A program made the translations under genes and the position numbers. Below are positions 3,864-19,777 of a DNA stretch of 45,218 nt, one piece after another. Numbering within the stretch: the first letter of the stretch is position 1; every line of letters starts with the position of its first letter. This DNA is from Roseburia sp. (GTDB taxonomy: Bacteria; Bacillota; Clostridia; Oscillospirales; Ruminococcaceae). The DNA lies in NCBI GenBank assembly GCA_023666265.1, contig JAMPCH010000019.1:1-45218 (forward strand). Direction: 5' to 3'. The notes beneath the pieces are model-generated. The model was not told the origin of the DNA. It was given only the letters and a program-made list of their open reading frames with translations, and did no database searches.

Positions 3864-3942
3864 GGTGGGATTAGCGTAGCTGGTCTAACGCGTCAGTTTG
3901 TGGCACTGAAGATCGTGGGTTCGAATCCCACATTCCACCCCA
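3864..3942 (+). tRNA. tRNA-His (anticodon GTG)
   Basis: Acceptor GTGGGAT pairs with ATTCCAC. The extra 5' G (3864) faces C73, the identity pair unique to tRNA-His. Anticodon stem TCAGT/ACTGA with loop TTGTGGC gives GTG. CCA is encoded. Its 3' end is duplicated at 4042-4061. Confidence 0.95.
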
Positions 3943-3986: not shown

Positions 3987-4062
3987 GTGGAATGTAGGGA
4001 GGAGAAGCCACAGGGGTTAGGCGTTCGTCCTGTGAACGCCGTCGAATCCCACATTCCACCCA
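3987..4062. repeat. tRNA-His 3'-end copy inside a folded dyad (att-like scar)
   Basis: TCGAATCCCACATTCCACCC (4042-4061) is a perfect 20-base copy of the tRNA-His 3' end (3921-3940). Upstream, GTGGAATGT-A-GGGA (3987-4000) is the inverse complement of TCCC-ACATTCCAC, so the copy closes a 13-bp stem; inside it GGCGTTC pairs with GAACGCC. A direct repeat of a tRNA 3' end is the usual scar of integration by a tyrosine recombinase. Here the two copies are only 121 bases apart. Confidence 0.6.
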
Positions 4063-4129
4063 ACTTTTGGAATCTCTTAATTGGCTTTGTTAAACCTTTT
4101 GGGAGATTTTCAATTTGTGAGATAAATTA

Positions 4130-4739
4130 TAGAAATTACGGTTTGCCCTTAGTCTGTCCTTACCTTCTGCTCAGAAGAAATACTCGGCTAAAGCGTTGTT
4201 ATAAGGGTCGCCGCGTCTTGACATTGATTGCGTTATGCCAAGATTTTCGGTAAGCTTATGATACGCGTTGGATGTGTATTGAAATCCTTGGTCGCTCGAA
4301 CAGTCTGGAAAACCAAATTCACATTCGGATCTGTCGAGGTTTCATAGGCTATAATTGCGATGAACGCCCTGTCTGTCAATTTCAAGCTGCTTGATTTTCG
4401 CTTCCTTGCGCGAGCATAATATTTCATCTCGCTGATCTTGTCCGTCTCGGTGTACTTGTTATCCTTGGATGGTCTTTCCCTTTTTCACAAACCTTCTCCC
4501 GCCGCGATCCTGTACTCCTTTGCGTGCAATCGTTTTACAAGGCCTTTCACTTGTTCCTTGCTGAATCCGAGTTCCTCACCAATTCCTCGATGAGTATATC
4601 CCTTTTCCAACATCTTCTCGATTTCCTTTTCGTACTGCTTTATGTGTTTATAACTTCTTGGCATAGCAAAGACCTCCTTTGGTTCTATTTTACCACAGGA
4701 GGTCTTTTTGTCTATGTCTGTTTTTACCGGTTCGGGTCA
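4130..4739 (-). mobile_element. Decayed IS3-family element (orfA and orfB fragments)
   Basis: Reading leftward from the TG terminus at 4739: orfA starts at 4664 behind AAAGGAGG, runs MPRSYKHIKQYEKEIEKML and on through a helix-turn-helix, then hits a stop. An orfA tail fragment follows. About 4320-4160 encodes the C-terminal part of orfB, including ITQSMSRRGDPYNNALAEYF (compare the family's SMSRKGNCYDNAPMESFF), broken by frameshifts and a stop. Most of orfB is deleted and the far end is not identifiable. It shares its terminus with the remnant at 52-189. Inactive. Confidence 0.75.
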
Positions 4740-4904: not shown

Positions 4905-4938
4905 TAAAAAGTGAGTACATTTTTGAACTCACTTTTTT
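4905..4938. terminator. Bidirectional terminator left of the recombinase segment
   Basis: AAAAAGTGAGT (4906-4916 region) pairs with ACTCACTTTTT; T-rich tracts lie on both sides. Read leftward it would stop transcription from the promoter at 4970-4998 only about 30-60 bases after its start. The 165 bases between the IS remnant and this hairpin show nothing recognisable. Confidence 0.75.
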
Positions 4939-4939
4939 G

Positions 4940-4962
4940 CAGAGTATTCACATCTAATACTC
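4940..4962. repeat. Left inverted repeat and putative recombination core
   Basis: The 16-base inverted repeat (4940-4955) overlaps a short palindrome: GAGTATT (4942-4948), spacer CACATCT, AATACTC (4956-4962). Inverted arms around a 6-8 base spacer are the usual form of a tyrosine recombinase crossover site. Confidence 0.65.
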
Positions 4963-4969
4963 CAGTTTC

Positions 4970-4998
4970 ATTATATCACGCCTATCGGTCGCTGTCAA
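4970..4998 (-). promoter_or_regulatory. Strong outward promoter inside the invertible segment
   Basis: On the minus strand TTGACA (4998-4993), 17 bases, TATAAT (4975-4970): a perfect consensus pair. In the present orientation it fires through the left repeat into the terminator at 4905-4938, which would give an RNA of roughly 60 bases and no coding product. Confidence 0.8.
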
Positions 4999-5055
4999 TA
5001 TATTCATGAAAAAAGAGAAATTTTTGTTTATTTTTAACAACCCGAATCGCCGTTA

Positions 5056-5064
5056 TGCTATAAT
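5056..5064 (+). promoter_or_regulatory. Extended -10 promoter of the recombinase gene
   Basis: TGCTATAAT (5056-5064) with no good -35 box; about 60 bases upstream of the ATG. Confidence 0.55.
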
Positions 5065-5123
5065 AAATTGAAGCATTTGGCTCTATAAGCCGTCAAAAAT
5101 ATGATCAAACAGGAGGCAGAAAT

Positions 5124-6293
5124 ATGGCTCGCAGAGGAGAAAACATCTATAAGCGAAAGGACGGTCGCTGGGGGGGTCGGATTCGGGTAGAACAGTCGGA
5201 CGGGATCGTAAAGCGCCGCTCTGTATACGCGCACAGCTATTTGGAGATCAAGCAAAGGCTGAAGGATTTCCAAGCCGGCAAGATAGATCGCCTTCCCAAC
5301 AAAAACACGGTCGAATATTATACCGAGCAATGGCTGAAAACGGTAAAGGTGAGATGTAAGCGATCAACGTACGGTAAATATTCAAATATTTGTAAAAATC
5401 ATATTGTCCCGATCTTGGGACAGACTCATATGAATTGTTTACAAAACGAAAATGTTTTCAGTATGCTGTCGCAAAGTGAGCGGCTTGCGCCCAAAACGCA
5501 AAATGATATTCTCTGTGTTCTGAAAATGATCTGTTCTTACGCCGAAGCCGACGGCTGTGGAAATTGCACGCATCTTTCCGATATATCGATTCGTGTCCCC
5601 AAAAGCGCGGTACAAATTCTTTCTCCCGACGAACAGCATAGACTTGTTAAATATTTATTGACAAATCCCGGCTTGGTGAAGCTTGGGATCTATCTTGTTC
5701 TTTGTACAGGGATGCGGATCGGGGAGCTTTGCGCGCTTCGGCGCGGGAACGTAGATTTTCAAACAAGACTTGTTCGCGTATGCGCGACAATGCAGCGAAT
5801 CCAGACCGACGATCCCGCGCATAAAACGGAAGTCATTATCACAGAGCCGAAAAGCGCATGCTCGATCCGCGATATTCCGCTGACCGACGAAATGGCAAAA
5901 TTTTTTGAGCCGTTTTTCGTCGGTATGGACGAAGATTCCTTTGTGCTTACCGGGAAGATCGACCGCTTTATCGAACCGAATACCATGCGGTATCATTTTG
6001 AGCGCATTTTAAAGCTTTGCGGGATCGCGAGAGTGAAGTTTCACGCCTTACGGCATACCTTCGCCACGAGATGTATCGAATCGGGCATGGACGTAAAAAC
6101 GCTAAGTGAGATACTCGGTCACGAAAATGTAAATATCACGCTAAACCGTTATGTTCATTCCTCAATGGAGTTGAAACGAAAAAGCATGGAAAAATTGTAT
6201 TGTTCCTCGGCTTATTTACCGTCAATTTTGGCGTCATCTTTCGACGAAAACGGCGCTGATAAAGGCGCGGAGGAGGATCTATGTCAGATGTGA
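5124..6293 (+). CDS. Tyrosine recombinase/integrase
   Basis: 389 residues. N-terminal AP2-like arm-binding segment (IYKRKDGRWGGRIRV, 8-22), SAM-like core-binding domain (about 62-150), and catalytic domain with all expected residues: Arg198 in CTGMRIGE, Lys243 in EPKSACSIRD, His307-xx-Arg310 in HALRHTF, His333 in LGHENV, and Tyr343 in NRYVH. It should be active in site-specific strand exchange. ATG with AGGAGG 8 bases upstream. No excisionase, relaxase or phage gene adjoins it. It sits inside perfect 16-base inverted repeats, which favours a DNA invertase role over integration, although the tRNA-His scar 1 kb away keeps integration possible. Composition is richer in AT than in the core genes, suggesting transfer. 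Confidence 0.93.
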   Translation: MARRGENIYKRKDGRWGGRIRVEQSDGIVKRRSVYAHSYLEIKQRLKDFQAGKIDRLPNKNTVEYYTEQWLKTVKVRCKRSTYGKYSNICKNHIVPILGQTHMNCLQNENVFSMLSQSERLAPKTQNDILCVLKMICSYAEADGCGNCTHLSDISIRVPKSAVQILSPDEQHRLVKYLLTNPGLVKLGIYLVLCTGMRIGELCALRRGNVDFQTRLVRVCATMQRIQTDDPAHKTEVIITEPKSACSIRDIPLTDEMAKFFEPFFVGMDEDSFVLTGKIDRFIEPNTMRYHFERILKLCGIARVKFHALRHTFATRCIESGMDVKTLSEILGHENVNITLNRYVHSSMELKRKSMEKLYCSSAYLPSILASSFDENGADKGAEEDLCQM

Positions 6294-6301
6294 ATACTCT
6301 G
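6286..6301. repeat. Right inverted repeat of the recombinase segment
   Basis: AGATGTGAATACTCTG, exact inverse complement of 4940-4955. It contains the recombinase stop codon (TGA, 6291-6293). Confidence 0.75.
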
Positions 6302-6470
6302 ATACATATTATAATTCCCCACCAAGTTCGCTTTATTTCATTTATTATGGAGAAGTGTCTGTTTATGAATACGACCTTAGCCAAAATACACCTCAATGGG
6401 CTTAAAAAATGTCGTTCGTTACATAAAACGTGTCGTTGGGAACATTTTTGAACACAAGCGAGAAAAAGTG

Positions 6471-6479
6471 TGGTATAAT
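6471..6479 (+). promoter_or_regulatory. Extended -10 promoter before the Ig-like protein gene
   Basis: TGGTATAAT (6471-6479) with only a poor -35 (TTGAAC at 6448-6453, 20-base spacing). It may give basal expression of the gene at 6540. Bases 6302-6447 show no other signal and no terminator. Confidence 0.5.
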
Positions 6480-6539
6480 GGATCTTAAACGGGATCGTAC
6501 TTTATGACCCGATCCGCAATTTTAAGGGAGGTAAATCTT

Positions 6540-7490
6540 ATGAAAACAAAAACAAGACTCAAGATCATGGCGGCTTGTACGGCTTTCCTGCTGGCGCTGA
6601 CCGACCTATTCGGATTTGCGGAGTTGCTTCCGGGCGTTTCGGGATTTTCCGCGACAGCGGAGGCGGCTTCCAAAATGTTGAATCATTCCTCTATGACGAT
6701 CACGGTCGGACAGAAGGTAAAGCTAAAGGCAAACACGGATAAAACGGTCAAATGGAGCTCGTCCGATAAAAGTATCGCTACGGTAAATTCAAAAGGAACG
6801 GTAACGGGAAAAAAATATGGAGAAGTAAAAATTTACGCGACCGTGGACGGGAAAAAGTATACCTGTAAGATCAGTGTTGAAAAACTTTGGATTAACGATC
6901 CGGTATCCGGCTACAATTTTTCCGGCTTGGAAGTCGGGGATGTAGTGTACTTAGAGAAAAACCTTACATCTTCTGCGGAATGGTATTCTTCTAATCCATA
7001 TGTCGCGACGGTCAATAAAAACGGAAAGGTAACAGCCCGAAAAGAAGGTATGGCATGTATTTACGCAAAGGTCGGAAATGAGACGGCTCATTGTTTTTTA
7101 TGTACGGCAAAGGGAGCTTCGGAAAAAGTACCATACTACGTAGAGACTGTAATGCCGGATATGTACTTAGGTATAAATGATAAAGTCGGGCTCCGTTTGG
7201 AACGGGATTATCAATTTTTAAATGTTGACAAAATCGGTACAAACGCATCAGAAGCGAGAACCCAAGTTTGTTTAGACAGCTATGACAAAATACAGGTTGA
7301 GGGAGACAACACTTTGTATGGATTTGATTTCGTTGCTTTAGCGAACTTAATCTATCCCGAAACGTCTTATATTTGTCAAAAAGGCGATCGCTACGGAAAG
7401 TTTACAATTACGGAAAGTCAAACAAATTACATAGACAAAAACGCTAATATAAAAAATTCCGACCCGGATTATGTTATCACGGAGAAATAG
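6540..7490 (+). CDS. Secreted protein with bacterial Ig-like group 2 domains (N-terminal part, amber-interrupted)
   Basis: 316 residues from the ATG at 6540 (AAGGGAGG 8 bases upstream) to a TAG at 7488. Signal peptide about 1-43 (long, ending near ATAEAAS). Two BIG_2-type repeats follow: about 44-110 (VKWSSSDKSIATVNSKGTVT) and about 118-180 (AEWYSSNPYVATVNKNGKV). The rest is unrecognised. Such domains usually carry cell-surface or adhesion modules. The reading frame continues without a frameshift past the TAG into 7509-7826, so the original protein was probably 429 residues. It is the first gene right of the candidate invertible segment, hence a possible phase-variable target. Confidence 0.75.
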   Translation: MKTKTRLKIMAACTAFLLALTDLFGFAELLPGVSGFSATAEAASKMLNHSSMTITVGQKVKLKANTDKTVKWSSSDKSIATVNSKGTVTGKKYGEVKIYATVDGKKYTCKISVEKLWINDPVSGYNFSGLEVGDVVYLEKNLTSSAEWYSSNPYVATVNKNGKVTARKEGMACIYAKVGNETAHCFLCTAKGASEKVPYYVETVMPDMYLGINDKVGLRLERDYQFLNVDKIGTNASEARTQVCLDSYDKIQVEGDNTLYGFDFVALANLIYPETSYICQKGDRYGKFTITESQTNYIDKNANIKNSDPDYVITEK

Positions 7491-7508
7491 CTGAAAGCAA
7501 AAGGAAAG

Positions 7509-7826
7509 ATGACGTTTGACTGTTCCATTACTTGGATCGCGGACGGTCCCGACATCGGATATTTTATATCGGTCGAGGATAATGATAAATTGATCGATGA
7601 CAATAAAATGCCTGTTGTGTGTCCGAATAATCGATTGGAAGCTTCGCTTACTTCGGAACAAAAGCAACTGATCCAGCGTTACTTAAAACCGAATGAGACC
7701 GCAAAATTTTCGGTAACGATCAGCGGGTATTCGAGCCGGTCGAGCGTACAAGTATGGTATTGTGACAGTCCGAAAACAGGGTCGCTGTTTTTAGACGTTA
7801 GCAAAATAAAATCTCTCGGGAAGTAA
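7509..7826 (+). pseudogene. Detached C-terminal part of the Ig-like secreted protein
   Basis: In frame with the preceding gene, separated only by TAG plus six sense codons. 105 residues from the ATG at 7509, beta-rich (FDCSITWIADGPDIGYFISV, later KFSVTISGYSSRSSVQVWYC), with no signal peptide, so translated alone it would stay in the cytoplasm. An AAGGA lies only 4 bases before the ATG. Either a nonsense mutation has split the gene, or reinitiation or read-through makes some of it. TAG is used as an ordinary stop elsewhere (3552), so recoding is unlikely. Confidence 0.55.
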
Positions 7827-7869
7827 GCGGAAATCGCTTTAAACAAATCATTTACAGGAGGACAAGACC

Positions 7870-8571
7870 ATGAAAAAAACATTCAAACTTTCCATTCTCG
7901 CGCTGTTGATCGCGGCGCTGACCGCTTCCATGCTGATGATAACGGCTTCGGCGGCGAGCTTGGAGGAGCTTTCAACGGAGATCAAATCGGGAGAGGTCAT
8001 AAAGGAGCAATTTTATTCCAATGGAGCAGCAGAGAAATATTACAAAATCAATGTTTCCGAAAAAGGGGAATTGAAAATATCCTTTGATAATACTGTACAA
8101 ACGATAACTTATCAGGTATATAATAGCAAGGGCGAACGGATAAGTAGTTCGGATTATTATGCCGAAGTTGGACAGATGTACCCGTATTATGCTGATTGGA
8201 ATTATATAGTTGAAAAAGCAAAGGGATTCGCCATATACAATGTCAATAAAGGTACTTATTATATTAAAATTGGGGTTAGTAAGGTAGGAAACGGTGCAAT
8301 GAAAATGACCGCCGAATTTCCCTCCGACGATACCCCCGCGACAAAATCCATTCGCTTAAAGATCACGCTCGACGAGGGCGATACGATCCGCCTTGGGGCG
8401 ATCCTCGACCCGGAGGACGCGGAAGAACCGAAATGGACAAGCAGTAACAAAAAAGTCGCCACGGTCTCAAGCTCCGGGAAGGTGAAAGCGATCTCCGAGG
8501 GGACGGCGACGATCAAATGTAGATCGGGCGGAAAAACGCTGAAGATCAAGCTTGTCGTTGAGGCGGCGTAA
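7870..8571 (+). CDS. Secreted protein with PPC-like and Ig-like group 2 domains
   Basis: 233 residues. Signal peptide MKKTFKLSILALLIAALTAS to about 28 (cut near ITASA-A). Middle part (about 35-150) resembles a pre-peptidase C-terminal beta-sandwich (FYSNGAAEKYYKINVSEKG, later GTYYIKIGV). The C-terminal 155-232 is a BIG_2 domain (PKWTSSNKKVATVSSSGKV). CAGGAGGA lies 8 bases before the ATG. DNA of the middle domain is clearly richer in AT than the BIG_2 part, with a sharp change near 8310, suggesting domain shuffling. Substrate unknown; surface binding or adhesion is inferred. Confidence 0.75.
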   Translation: MKKTFKLSILALLIAALTASMLMITASAASLEELSTEIKSGEVIKEQFYSNGAAEKYYKINVSEKGELKISFDNTVQTITYQVYNSKGERISSSDYYAEVGQMYPYYADWNYIVEKAKGFAIYNVNKGTYYIKIGVSKVGNGAMKMTAEFPSDDTPATKSIRLKITLDEGDTIRLGAILDPEDAEEPKWTSSNKKVATVSSSGKVKAISEGTATIKCRSGGKTLKIKLVVEAA

Positions 8572-8591
8572 ATTTGCCGAAAAGGAAAGGA

Positions 8592-9377
8592 ATGTCTGAT
8601 ATGTTTTGTAAAAATAGCGGGCAGGAATTAGCTGATGACGCGGAATATTGTCGCAAGTGCGGAACGCCGGTCACTGCCCAAAATATTGTTTCGCGCCCGT
8701 CGACAAACAAATTCGGGAAATTTGTGACCGCGATGATGATCACGGATACCGTTTCCTTACTTGTTATCGCCGTGTTTGTGATCGCATTGTATGTAAATTT
8801 GACGGAATTAAGCGAAAAAATTGAAAGCGAAGGCAGCTTAGAGGTCAGCGTATTCTCCGATGAAGGATCGGATGACGAAGACGAAGATGACAACAACGGT
8901 GACGAAGACGAAGATGACAACAACGGTGACGAAGACGAAGACGAGGACGAGGACGAGAACGACAATCGCTTTGATGATTACGATGACCTCTCGAATGACG
9001 GATATTATTATGAGGATGAATACGATTCGAGCCGGTACGATGAAGAAACGGAGAATACTTCGCAATTTACCGCGAGCAGTTTTCTCGGAACATGGTCGTA
9101 TACCAGTTACATAAGCGAAAAGACGGTAACGTTTTATTCCGACGGAACTTTCAGCGGAAGTATACCGATATATTTCCTCGACCGTAGCGTTTCCACTTAT
9201 TTTACGCTGAGTAACGGCGATTGGTCGTTTTTAGAGCAGGAGCAGGTCTTGAGCGTCCGCGATATTATGTATTCGTTCAGCCCGTCTAAATTGCACGTTG
9301 AGATGACGGGCGACATCCTAACGATCTATTTCGATGAGATCGGCGGAGACTCTTGTGTGCTTACAAAAGTAAAATAA
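8592..9377 (+). CDS. Zinc-ribbon-like membrane protein with acidic repeat and lipocalin-like C-terminus
   Basis: 261 residues from the ATG at 8592 (AAAAGG six bases upstream). The ATG at 8601, giving MFCKNSGQEL, and a TTG at 8574 are alternatives. Layout: a short zinc-ribbon in which one of four ligands is lost (CKNS in place of CxxC, then CRKC); a membrane helix (about 48-72); an acidic Asp/Glu/Asn low-complexity linker (about 92-125) built on 27-base DNA repeats; and a C-terminal domain (about 165-261) starting FLGTWSYTSYISEKTVTFYS, resembling small lipocalin-like domains of Firmicutes membrane proteins. It starts 20 bases after the previous gene, so probably the same operon. Function unknown. 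Confidence 0.65.
   Translation: MSDMFCKNSGQELADDAEYCRKCGTPVTAQNIVSRPSTNKFGKFVTAMMITDTVSLLVIAVFVIALYVNLTELSEKIESEGSLEVSVFSDEGSDDEDEDDNNGDEDEDDNNGDEDEDEDEDENDNRFDDYDDLSNDGYYYEDEYDSSRYDEETENTSQFTASSFLGTWSYTSYISEKTVTFYSDGTFSGSIPIYFLDRSVSTYFTLSNGDWSFLEQEQVLSVRDIMYSFSPSKLHVEMTGDILTIYFDEIGGDSCVLTKVK
8874..8957 (+). repeat. 27-base tandem repeat coding for an acidic linker
   Basis: Two identical 27-base units (8874-8900 and 8901-8927), each coding DEDEDDNNG, and a partial, further diverged third. Prone to slippage in steps that keep the reading frame. Confidence 0.85.
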
Positions 9378-9473
9378 CAGATCAAGGAGGTGATAATATC
9401 GTAATGGAGATCAAAGTATATTTGAGGTTTAAAATTAAAAGTCAGTTCTTTGGACAGGAAAGGAAGGTCTAAA

Positions 9474-12026
9474 ATGAAAAAAGTAATTTTCGCATTTTTA
9501 CTGGCAGTATTTACGGCGGCGTTTCTATGCGTCCCGTCAAGCGCGGCATGGCTCAGCTCTGAGGCGCCGGTCATGAAATACGGCTCCACCGGGTGGTCTG
9601 TTACACAGTTACAACAGGATTTAAATACACTCGGATACGGTCTGTCGACCGACGGGAGCTTCGGTCCCGCGACGCTGAACGCCGTAAAGGATTATCAGTC
9701 GCAGATGGGACTTGAGGTGGACGGAAGCGTCGGACCCGCCACAAAAAACAGTATTATTTCCACGATCAACTCCTATGAAAGCAGTACGTCGATCCAAATC
9801 CCCGGATCGGGCGCTATGACGAAAGGCAGTAAGGGGATCCGGGTAAGATTTCTGCAAAAAATGCTTTGTTTGCTTGGCTATCCCATTGATATTGACGGGA
9901 GCTTCGGAAACGCAACATATGAGGCAGTACGATCCTTCCAAAGCGATTACGGGATCGCGATAGACGGCTCTTGCGGTCCGGAGACGATACAATACATAAA
10001 CGGCGCGATCTTAGGGACTTATTCTCCAAAGCCCGTTCAGACAGAGCCTCCGATCGTAACGACCGTTCCCGAGACGACTACGACGCCTCCGACGACAACT
10101 ACACCCGCTACAACAACGACTGCACGCACGACTACGACTACTCCCGCGATAACAACGACAGCGCGCACGACTACAACTGCCCGCGCAACCACTACTGTTC
10201 CGAAGGCGGAGACGACCACAAAAGCAAAAACGGTTTCGACCGAGAAGGAGGTTGTTCCCGAGAAAACAACAGTCACACCCGCCGAAGAATCCGAGCCGAT
10301 TTTTGATGACTCGGAGCCGGAATCCGAGCCGGATGCGACAACGACAGAACGCGAAATTTTGCCGGAGATCATTACAGACCCTCGGATCGATTCGGGCGCG
10401 GCGTTACAATACGGCAGCAAGGGGGATCGGGTAAAACAGCTCCAGCGTTGTTTGGTTTATCTCGGATGGGAGATCGAGGTAGACGGGAGTTTCGGAAACG
10501 CTACGAGAAACGCCGTCAAGGAATTTCAGAAAAAATACGGCTTAACGGTCGACGGAAGCTGCGGTCCGGCGACGAGAGCCAAGATCAACGAAGTATGTGA
10601 AAGCACAATTTACGCAATGTCGATCGATACCGATAAGGAGAGTAAGACCTGCGCTGTCGGCGGCACGATCTCCCTATCCGTAAAATATTCTCCGATAAAC
10701 GCAAACACCGGGAAAACGGTTCAGTGGTCTTCCTCGAATAAAGCGATCGCAACGGTCGATAAAGACGGAAAGGTGACGGGAGTCAGCGCCGGGAATGCGA
10801 ATATTACCGCGACATTCCGCGCAAGAGACGGCTACACTTTTAAAAAGGTATTTAAATTAACCGTAAAGGTCATTCAGCCGAAAAGTATTCAGATCGAGCG
10901 AGAACCGATCGGAAAGCTAAGCGACGAGATCATCCCGGTGGGTTATTCCGTTAAACTCAACGCGGTCGTTAAGCCGGACAATGCGATTACGACCGTAAAA
11001 TGGAAATCCTCCGCTCCCGAGTACCTGAAGGTCGATTCCGACGGGACGGTAACGGGCATAAAAGCAACTCTGGGAAACGCCTCAGCCGGTGTGTTCATTT
11101 CAACTGAGACTGTGACCATAACAGCGACAGCGGACAACGGCGTAAAGACAACGAAAAAATTCCGCGTAGTAGAATACAAGCCGAAATCGTTTGAACTCAA
11201 GTTGAACGATAAGGTCATCAAGAATAAAGGAACTTATACGTTCAATACAGGCGATCAAATCAAGATCGAGAAAAGTTTTGAGCCGGTTTATGCGCTTTCC
11301 GATCTTCAATTTAAGGTAGGCGATAAGAAGATCGTCGAGATCGACGGAGATCAGCTGAAAGCGATCTCGCCCGGAGAAACAACGGTTACATGTAAAACAA
11401 AAAATTCCAAAGTGTCGGTTCAGTTTACGGTGAAAGTGGAGGATGCTAAGTGGCAATGGCCGCTTCCGCTTGATAAATCGAACTGGATCAGCGGAGAATT
11501 CTGGCAAGAAAGATCTAATCATATGCATAGAGGAATTGATATTGCTGTTGGAAATGGTACTGATGTTTTGGCAACTAGAGATGGAACAATCGCCTATGTA
11601 CATTCGAAAAAAACAGGAGCACGTGGGCTTTATGTTGTCGTCGACCACGGAGATGGCTATTACTCGATTTACCAGCATCTTAGCGAGAGTCTAAAAAATG
11701 TCGGCGATTTTGTAAACAAAGGAGATGTGATTGCAAAATCGGGCGATTCAGGCTCAGCGGGAAGTTATCACCTGCATTTTGAAGTAAAGCGAGGCTGTAA
11801 AATAGGGTTGCGAGATACCGTTGTCGTTACGGAGGTGGTTAATAAAATCGATAACTTAGCTAATCCTTCTCCGCTGATTCAGTGGAGCGGAATCGGTCCA
11901 AGTTTCAAAAAAGGAGATTATTTGGACGACATATTTATCGATCGGATAGAATATGATAAACTCCCCAAAAACTTGTACAACGACTATTCAAAATATCGTA
12001 ACTATATGAATGAACCAAGAGGATAA
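9474..12026 (+). CDS. Secreted modular peptidoglycan hydrolase: three PG-binding domains, Ig-like domains, M23 endopeptidase
   Basis: 850 residues. Signal peptide 1-25. PG_binding_1 domains at about 35-97, 115-178 and 311-372, each with the DGSFG and DGS(V/C)GP signature. Thr/Pro linker 190-250, then an acidic stretch to 300. Ig-like group 2 domains at about 383-465 (VQWSSSNKAIATVDKDGKVT), 470-565 and 572-655. M23/LytM domain at about 660-775 with zinc ligands His685, Asp689 and His768 and catalytic His735 and His766, so it should cleave peptide cross-links of the cell wall. The ATG at 9474 has AAAGGAAGG upstream. The DNA changes to AT-rich codons from about 11500, in the peptidase domain, hinting at an acquired module. 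Terminator follows at 12127. Confidence 0.9.
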   Translation: MKKVIFAFLLAVFTAAFLCVPSSAAWLSSEAPVMKYGSTGWSVTQLQQDLNTLGYGLSTDGSFGPATLNAVKDYQSQMGLEVDGSVGPATKNSIISTINSYESSTSIQIPGSGAMTKGSKGIRVRFLQKMLCLLGYPIDIDGSFGNATYEAVRSFQSDYGIAIDGSCGPETIQYINGAILGTYSPKPVQTEPPIVTTVPETTTTPPTTTTPATTTTARTTTTTPAITTTARTTTTARATTTVPKAETTTKAKTVSTEKEVVPEKTTVTPAEESEPIFDDSEPESEPDATTTEREILPEIITDPRIDSGAALQYGSKGDRVKQLQRCLVYLGWEIEVDGSFGNATRNAVKEFQKKYGLTVDGSCGPATRAKINEVCESTIYAMSIDTDKESKTCAVGGTISLSVKYSPINANTGKTVQWSSSNKAIATVDKDGKVTGVSAGNANITATFRARDGYTFKKVFKLTVKVIQPKSIQIEREPIGKLSDEIIPVGYSVKLNAVVKPDNAITTVKWKSSAPEYLKVDSDGTVTGIKATLGNASAGVFISTETVTITATADNGVKTTKKFRVVEYKPKSFELKLNDKVIKNKGTYTFNTGDQIKIEKSFEPVYALSDLQFKVGDKKIVEIDGDQLKAISPGETTVTCKTKNSKVSVQFTVKVEDAKWQWPLPLDKSNWISGEFWQERSNHMHRGIDIAVGNGTDVLATRDGTIAYVHSKKTGARGLYVVVDHGDGYYSIYQHLSESLKNVGDFVNKGDVIAKSGDSGSAGSYHLHFEVKRGCKIGLRDTVVVTEVVNKIDNLANPSPLIQWSGIGPSFKKGDYLDDIFIDRIEYDKLPKNLYNDYSKYRNYMNEPRG

Positions 12027-18571: not shown

Positions 18572-19777
18572 TCAATTTGACCGCTCCTCGGGGAGAAGCC
18601 TCGGCGCGCCCCGGTCGATCCCGATCGCGCCGAGCGGCGCGGTGATCAGGATCGCGAGTACCGCGACGGAAAGGATCGCCTTCCCACAGGGGAGACCGAG
18701 CGAGAGCGGGATCGAGCCGATCGCCGCCTGTACCGTCGCCTTCGGAAGGTAGGCGATCACGCAGAAAAGCCGCTCCTTCCGCCCCAACTCCGTTTTGAGA
18801 AGGGAGAGCAGTACCCCGACCGCACGAAAGAGGAGGGCGGTCAGGATCAGCCCGAGCGCGGGAAGTCCCGCCTCGAGCGTATAGCGGACGTCGACCGCCG
18901 CCCCCACCAGTACGAATAAAAGCACCTCCGCCGCGACCCAAAGCGCCCCGAATTTCTCAGACTGGGCTTTTAACGTGCTTTCGTTCAGCTTCGTTTTTAA
19001 AACGCACGCCATCGCGATCACCGCGAGTAAGCCCGAGACCGCGACGGCGCTTTCAAGCGCCGTCTCCGCGTAGGTCAACAAAAACGCCGTCGAGAGGATC
19101 AAAAGCGTAATAAACGTATCACGCGCCGCGTCCCGCGCCTTCTCAATAAGGCGAAGCGCGATATACAGGACGATCGCGGCGACGATCCCCAGTAAGACCC
19201 CGAGGACGATCGAGACGGAGATCTTTAAAAAGTCGCTCCACTCCGCCGAGCCGCCCTGAGCCATCGTTAAGAACGTACCGAACAAAACGATCACGAATAC
19301 GTCGTCACAGGACGCGCCCGCGAGGATCATCTGAGGGATCGCCTTTTTTGTCCCCCGCCCCGTCTCGATGAGCTTGATCATACGCGGGACGACGACGGCG
19401 GGCGAGACCGCGCTTAAAACCGCGCCCATGAGCGCCGCGTCGATCGGCGCGACCCCGAGAAAAAGCGGCGCGAAGCAAAAATAGCCCAAGATCTCAAAAC
19501 AGGCGGGAAGGAAGGACAGGAGGACGGCGGGTCGCCCGACCTTTTTCAGATCGGCGAGGTTTAGGGACAGCCCCGCTCTTATCAAAATGACGACGAGGGC
19601 GATCCGCCGAAGCTCGGTCGAGATCCCGAGGATCGAGGGATCGAGCAGGTCGAGCGCGAAAGGACCGAGGACGATCCCCGTCGCGATCATTCCGACGATC
19701 CGAGGAAGTCCGATCCTCCGAACGATCTCGGCGACGGACAGCCCCACCAAAAAGATCAGCGCGAGCGATAACAGCAT
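18572..19777 (-). CDS. Cation:proton antiporter (CPA/NhaP-like)
   Basis: 401 residues, about 11-12 membrane helices, typical of monovalent cation/H+ exchangers. Visible: RIGLPRIVGMIATGIVLGPF at the first helices, GAVLSAVSPAVVVPRM (helix 4 unwound region), and ASCDDVFVIVLFG with the acidic pair of the ion site on helix 5. GAAGGAGGA lies 6-7 bases before the ATG. It is transcribed from a consensus promoter (19921-19949) through a leader that looks like a fluoride riboswitch. Antiporters of this class are among the known targets of that riboswitch, so a role in fluoride tolerance or associated ion balance is inferred. Confidence 0.85.
   Translation of the reverse strand: MLLSLALIFLVGLSVAEIVRRIGLPRIVGMIATGIVLGPFALDLLDPSILGISTELRRIALVVILIRAGLSLNLADLKKVGRPAVLLSFLPACFEILGYFCFAPLFLGVAPIDAALMGAVLSAVSPAVVVPRMIKLIETGRGTKKAIPQMILAGASCDDVFVIVLFGTFLTMAQGGSAEWSDFLKISVSIVLGVLLGIVAAIVLYIALRLIEKARDAARDTFITLLILSTAFLLTYAETALESAVAVSGLLAVIAMACVLKTKLNESTLKAQSEKFGALWVAAEVLLFVLVGAAVDVRYTLEAGLPALGLILTALLFRAVGVLLSLLKTELGRKERLFCVIAYLPKATVQAAIGSIPLSLGLPCGKAILSVAVLAILITAPLGAIGIDRGAPRLLPEERSN

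Follow-up and report, generated by a model that had tools for sequence, protein, structure and literature searches.

Can a promoter be turned round by an enzyme that is encoded within the turning DNA itself? This question is raised by a locus of Roseburia sp. (assembly GCA_023666265.1, contig JAMPCH010000019.1), where a tyrosine recombinase gene and an outward-facing promoter lie together between two inverted repeats, followed on the right by a gene cluster that begins with a gene for an immunoglobulin-like (Ig-like) protein. We analysed the entire contig of 45,218 nucleotides (hereafter the window), which belongs to a genome of 2,809,675 bases in 98 contigs. An original prediction from the letters alone had described a self-contained invertible switch with the recombinase inside. 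Comparison with relatives of the recombinase supports that description: the locus is very likely a self-contained invertible promoter cassette, run by the Tn916/Tn1549-type integrase that it encodes.

The two repeat arms (table 1) are 16 nt long and 100% complementary, as had been claimed, and they form the single inverted pair of 16-mers spaced 200–3000 bp apart in the window. With up to three mismatches allowed, the repeat was unmatched elsewhere in the window (0.13 expected); with up to two, the arms were the sole matches across the genome, where a control read backwards gave one match. The segment bounded by the repeats (4940–6301) is 1362 bp long and holds one tyrosine recombinase gene and an outward promoter, which places a promoter between inverted repeats, the mark of an invertible promoter. 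A minus-strand TTGACA-17-TATAAT promoter just inside the left end and a terminator directly outside it had both been predicted, and both were found. The terminator-like hairpin has 14-nt arms that are 93% complementary, with a folding energy of −12.8 kcal/mol (z −3.54); a fixed terminator rule missed it, while a mismatch-tolerant scan picked it up.

The recombinase is complete, as predicted. Its open reading frame (ORF) encodes 389 amino acids (aa) and matches Phage_integrase with E = 4.1e-28, and residues R198, K243, H307, R310, H333 and Y343, which we take to be catalytic, are present and invariant across 80 aligned sequences. Among solved structures, 6en0 is the nearest in sequence; its deposited name is 'Int protein', and it is presumably the Tn1549 integrase. 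In an AlphaFold2 model (mean predicted local distance difference test (pLDDT) score 89.6, predicted template modelling (pTM) score 0.78), the N-terminus consists of three strands (residues 8–10, 16–23 and 29–36) and one helix (39–50), with a pLDDT of 87–94 for the block; strands are also modelled at residues 216–240 and could belong to the catalytic-domain segment that is conserved in the IntTn916 subgroup. The model thus has three strands and one helix ahead of the core-binding domain, the feature of the IntTn916 subgroup, whose arm-binding domain is described in this way in the accessible part of PMC8138268. Relatives of the same genus listed at E ≤ 1e-60 were at most 48% identical to the recombinase and one relative of the same family was 51% identical, so the cassette, as judged by sequence, does not have the status of a conserved genus trait.

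Relatives were drawn from related genomes, from named genome contigs (the best 80 of 572 confirmed) and from viral contigs. The resulting 119 loci, window included, were reduced to 113 distinct loci by dropping one duplicate and five near-duplicates, and to 110 testable loci by dropping three near contig ends; three of the 119 had been too short for the first repeat scan. A locus was counted as flanked when its inverted repeat scored at least 14; as a control, the upstream flank of one locus was paired with the downstream flank of another. Inverted repeats surrounded the recombinase at 90/110 testable loci, compared with 2.7% in the mismatched control. Median distances were 194 bp from the left site to the start codon and 69.5 bp from the stop codon to the right site, and the median segment measured 1436 bp. 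A class-wide sample of 20 stretches, picked from 44 places in a draw of 291 class genomes, gave flanking repeats in 17 cases (control 0.35%), or in 16 of the 19 new ones, since L154 repeats L071; L158, L165 and L169 failed, L163 passed with an atypical repeat and L156 is closely related to L014. All 12 plasmid and phage records taken from 18 matches scored at least 14, three of them exactly 14, in an uncontrolled scan of wider flanks. Of the 291 class genomes searched, the window's own genome included, 30 had a relative at E ≤ 1e-90. The predicted switch of the window is one member of a large, widespread family.

Strand exchange between two sites of a tyrosine recombinase requires matching centres. 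When sites were located by the outer half-site motif alone, exactly one motif per side was found at 44 of the 113 loci, the window being excluded. At all 44 the 6-bp centres were identical within the locus, while between loci they agreed on average at 2.3 of 6 positions; the centres are thus matched and private to each locus. In the window the centres match only through the perfect repeat, and its off-motif right half-site barred it from this test.

Relatives also occur in opposite arrangements. The segments of L056 and L065 are 93% identical over 1478 bp, and their shared target (72%; TetR-like by eye) lies to the right in one and to the left in the other, the flank homology beginning at the arms. 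Homologous flanks on opposite sides were also found in the pairs L034/L037, L083/L090, L124/L141 and L103/L121, where the arms of L124 were undetected by the repeat rule. When 1.5-kb flanks were compared in translation, 107 locus pairs had their homologous flanks on matching sides of the recombinase and 28 had them on opposite sides (88 versus 22 for outward genes). The contigs of L041, L090 and L114 begin within the left arm, which makes three of the six distinct loci whose contig starts at most 300 bp from the gene; such breaks fit assemblies of mixed orientations and lend weak support to flipping.

Could the enzyme instead be the lone integrase of a former prophage or integrative element with tRNA-His as its insertion site, the repeats being there by chance? 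The gene lies about 1.2 kb from tRNA-His, and 20 bases of the 3' end of that tRNA gene (3921–3940) are duplicated exactly 121 bp downstream at 4042–4061; these are the only copies of the 20-mer in the genome with up to two mismatches, and the duplicate resembles the attachment (att) scar of another integrative element. This att-like repeat, however, lies outside the segment and is unlike either core site, whereas the recombinase's own sites at 4940 and 6286 follow the family-wide layout. Family members were counted at 9 viral loci and in 6 phage records at E ≤ 1e-50, whereas the larger collection of genome contigs gave 572 confirmed stretches. We consider a prophage remnant highly improbable. 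Between tRNA-His and the switch, at 4062–4720 on the minus strand, a stretch looks by eye like a broken IS3-like transposase remnant.

Promoters in the family were scored as the number of hexamer matches, plus 0.5 for TG and 0.5 for a spacer of 17, in the region from the left site to the start codon. Scores of at least 11 were reached on the minus strand at 63/90 loci and on the plus strand at 1/90, compared with 0.7% in mononucleotide shuffles. In the 120 bp beyond the left site, 33/87 loci had a strong terminator-like hairpin, compared with 6/89 beyond the right site (shuffles at most 0.4%). These features bear on a further explanation, namely that the locus is a tiny transposon with a tyrosine transposase between terminal inverted repeats. 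Such an element would have one gene between its repeats, as here, and could account for the several relatives found in some genomes, up to seven at E ≤ 1e-60 in G042. Cores made of two half-sites with locus-specific identical centres nevertheless suit inversion and not insertion, and the conserved outward promoters and outside terminators would be needed by inversion only. In addition, the next best relative in the same genome is 30% identical and has no such repeats (three more distant integrases there gave repeat scores of 8, 10 and 9). A transposon is therefore scarcely credible.

With a simple ORF caller, an outward gene was found on the right only at 55/90 loci (46 with an inward gene on the left, nine with none called there), on the left only at 7/90 and on both sides at 23/90; the other 5/90 fell into none of these groups. 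Because outward genes are mostly on the right only, the promoter in most assemblies points away from the likely target, as it does in the window. This asymmetry, together with the hairpin and the apparent transposase remnant to the left of the repeat, argues against a switch that acts chiefly leftward, or through read-through from the recombinase, and not on the Ig-like cluster. Such a switch would fit a left flank that is conserved with L102 (70% identity over about 200 bp, hairpin included) and an Ig-like gene with an extended −10 element of its own, and we judge it distinctly unlikely. Scanning of 102 outward neighbours returned HTH_3 most often (12), besides LytTR (5), TetR_N (4) and many single families (among the first 25 of 80 families). 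In L136, the 0.9-Mb plasmid pCR1A of Enterococcus gilvus, a family recombinase precedes a cluster of WxL/LPXTG surface-protein genes.

Both ends of the segment carry CCGTCA motifs in direct orientation, which is a new finding of this work. A search for over-represented 7-mers gave GCCGTCA upstream at 55/90 loci and downstream at 63/90 (0.2 and 0.6 expected). The broader [GAT]CCGTCA was found upstream at 77/90, downstream at 76/90 and at both ends at 68/90 loci, nearly always on the forward strand (103 upstream and 90 downstream, versus 4 and 3 on the reverse), while copies within genes were balanced between strands (34 versus 42). The class-wide sample had it upstream in 14/20 and downstream in 15/20 stretches; in plasmid and phage records it was less regular, with none upstream in L140 and none downstream in L131, for example. 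Many copies are paired with a second element as CCGTCA-N8-RTCA, which occurred 92 times forward and never in reverse (upstream at 54/90 and downstream at 37/90 loci); the spacing was 8 in 92 cases, 9 in 20 and any other in at most 4. The extended form CCGTCAA-N7-RTCA is present in the window in exactly two copies, the paired motifs of table 1 (0.01 expected); an arm-motif pattern with 6 free bases instead of 7 gave 13 matches for 9.2 expected. On the grounds of this enrichment, the predicted N-terminal fold and the sequence match to 6en0, the motifs could be arm-type sites for the N-terminal domain of the integrase.

Several observations weigh against a functional cassette in the window, or against parts of the family-wide picture. 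The window repeats are shorter than in most family members, and the right outer half-site deviates from the common ACTCTGCGA form. The ORF reaches about 27 residues beyond the end seen in L042–L047, a C-terminal extension that takes it into the repeat. The looser pattern GTCA-N8-RTCA has 14 matches in the window (1.0 expected) and is not specific to the segment, and the paired motif stands at both ends in just 27/90 loci. Flanking repeats were absent at 20/110 family loci, where a search for other inverted repeats gave a pair at −195/−2638 in L082 that could be a rearranged switch, short hairpins only in L046, L075 and L110, dispersed palindromic repeats in L120 and a pair reaching into the gene in L125. 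Some of the opposite arrangements could have arisen when cassettes came to lie independently next to homologous genes. The original prediction had called for related genomes to be compared for inverted alleles; this comparison yielded the opposite arrangements among relatives, but no inverted counterpart of the window was found among the sequences searched, with one genome per species in the genome collections. The two plasmids of each Enterococcus raffinosus pair (L132/L133 and L134/L135) shared one orientation. A search for near-identical viral contigs in both orientations gave the same nine as before, of which L123 and L124 are identical over their shared 9434 bases with no inversion.

These points raise the possibility of a decayed or locked family member, once invertible and now fixed in its present orientation. 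The brevity of the identity (just 16 bp) and the divergent right half-site would be expected in that case, as would the ORF running into the repeat and a first target protein for which none of the 70 other genus genomes searched gave a homologue at E ≤ 1e-30. The stop codon does lie within the right repeat, as had been pointed out with the suggestion that inversion would spare the gene. A stop inside or at most 10 bp from the right repeat was seen at only 3/90 loci, the others being L017 and L018, so its position is unusual and no design feature. On the other hand, the conserved catalytic residues are intact, the ORF is open, and the perfect 16-bp arms, the 12/12 promoter and both paired arm-like motifs are preserved. 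The closest relative, L041 (55% identity), has a similar right site and a likewise somewhat extended ORF, and its contig is one of those that start within the left arm. A locked switch is unlikely on balance, and we favour an invertible cassette that may still be active in this strain.

How would such a cassette operate? The integrase would bind the two inverted core sites, probably aided by its N-terminal domain on the CCGTCA arm-like motifs, and flip the 1362-bp segment, its own gene included. As sequenced, the strong promoter would fire to the left and reach the hairpin about 26 bp past the predicted start, and the cluster of surface-protein and peptidoglycan-hydrolase genes at 6540–12026 would be transcribed at most weakly, from its own promoter candidate or by read-through from the recombinase gene. 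After inversion the promoter start would lie near 6278, and the promoter would drive the cluster with a leader of about 260 nt ahead of it. Lying inside the segment, the arm-like motifs would turn with it, giving ON-to-OFF and OFF-to-ON reactions the same geometry, and for that reason the reaction should reverse without an excisionase. More broadly, the loci of Clostridia and Enterococcus plasmids probably form one class of cassette, defined by a Tn916-type arm-binding integrase, private inverted cores, CCGTCA arm motifs and an outward promoter; its members would be plug-in phase switches that reverse without excisionase and whose recombinase–site pairs co-evolve orthogonally.

The present orientation had been called OFF. 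The promoter does point at the hairpin, and in agreement with the claim that no hairpin precedes the Ig-like gene at 6540, a fixed-rule scan listed no plus-strand terminator in 6302–6540. Since an extended −10 precedes the Ig-like gene itself and no terminator is listed between that gene and the recombinase, the OFF state is probably not absolute and may be leaky, and the present state is better named low. Across the family, a promoter of this kind just outside the right site was not enriched at a score of at least 10 (5/89 loci, shuffles 5.7%), and at a score of at least 11 it was found at 3/89 loci (shuffles 0.5%). A recombinase promoter recognized by its extended −10 was present at 11/85 family loci compared with 4.8% in shuffles, a weak signal. 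Neither of these window −10 elements, nor the paired CCGTCA motifs, had featured in the original prediction. We further noticed that 20 nt of the left hairpin (4912–4931) recur at 85% identity, without the hairpin, at 6437–6456 before the Ig-like gene. A short plus-strand frame (6282–6452), found by eye with GGAGGAGG, which resembles a ribosome-binding site, and an ATG, spans the right repeat and would continue into different DNA depending on the orientation of the segment.

Table 1. Positions of the switch components and presumed targets in the window.
Feature	Position	Strand	Remarks
Terminator-like hairpin just outside left repeat	4906–4937	−	U tract follows in leftward direction
Left recombination site, inverted repeat arm	4940–4955		AGATGTGAATACTCTG read on minus strand; layout as in family sites
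Outward promoter TTGACA-17-TATAAT with extended −10	4998–4970	−	12/12 sigma-70 match, TG before −10
Candidate recombinase promoter element, extended −10 TGCTATAAT	5056–5064	+	weakly enriched in family
Left arm-like paired motif CCGTCA-N8-RTCA	5090–5107	+	inside segment
Tyrosine recombinase, Tn916/Tn1549-like, with N-terminal three-strand/one-helix domain	5124–6293	+	profile match, structure model
Right arm-like paired motif	6219–6236	+	within extended 3' end of recombinase ORF
Right recombination site, inverted repeat arm	6286–6301		encloses recombinase stop codon (6291–6293)
Candidate own promoter of Ig-like gene, AACACA-17-TATAAT	6451–6479	+	extended −10 TGGTATAAT at 6471–6479
First presumed target, 316-aa protein with Big_2 domains	6540–7490	+	signal peptide and ribosome-binding site by eye
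Remaining presumed target cluster	7509–12026	+	105-aa ORF, Big_2 protein, zinc-ribbon-like protein, 858-aa peptidoglycan-binding/M23 peptidase/Big_2 protein

The genes of the presumed target cluster (6540–12026) are co-directional, and the plus-strand terminator-like matches at 9059 and 11077 both fall within coding frames; the cluster would form one operon. Among the other window proteins scanned, which cover part of the ORFs, there was no match to a phage or integrative and conjugative element family, and several matched nothing. Elsewhere in the window, a Na+/H+ exchanger gene (18572–19777, minus strand) is immediately preceded by a fluoride riboswitch (Rfam RF01734; 19821–19912, minus strand).

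The cassette combines features of several known systems. It shares with the Tn916/Tn1549 integrases of the IntTn916 subgroup the sequence match to 6en0 and the N-terminal three strands and one helix, but no mobile element was recognized around the window recombinase, and the enzyme would act on two inverted sites and not join the ends of an element. In switches of the RecV/FimB type a tyrosine recombinase likewise flips a promoter or leader, but the FimB gene lies outside the invertible DNA. The same is stated for RecV in the accessible part of PMC5903667. Hin-type segments resemble the cassette in that the invertase gene lies within the flipped segment and the promoter changes direction, but Hin is a serine recombinase (accessible parts of PMC5903667 and PMC8987985), whereas here the enzyme is a tyrosine integrase with arm-like motifs. 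The original prediction of a Hin-like geometry with a tyrosine enzyme holds on both counts; the arrangement is not unique to this locus, as it recurs throughout a widespread family. Inverton group 139, found mostly in Clostridia and linked to a nearby tyrosine-type recombinase of invertase group 35 in the accessible part of PMC11892184, also has promoter DNA between inverted repeats; its two example spans given there, of about 255 bp, are too short to hold a recombinase, in contrast to the roughly 1.4 kb with the recombinase inside described here. No description of a self-contained tyrosine cassette family was found in the literature searched, which included few subscription papers. Invertible promoters, and a recombinase inside the segment as in Hin, are thus already known, and the self-contained tyrosine layout is a new variant.

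Cassettes of this kind could be missed by searches that are restricted to short spacings, and the family is a source of many candidate site-specific invertases that could serve as tools. For the bacteria themselves, the recurrence of regulators among the outward neighbours (helix-turn-helix, LytTR response and TetR-type) means that one flip could shift a whole programme. Our results point to a large, mechanically recognizable family of phase switches in Clostridia, in which a mobile-element-type integrase may have been recruited as a gene switch.

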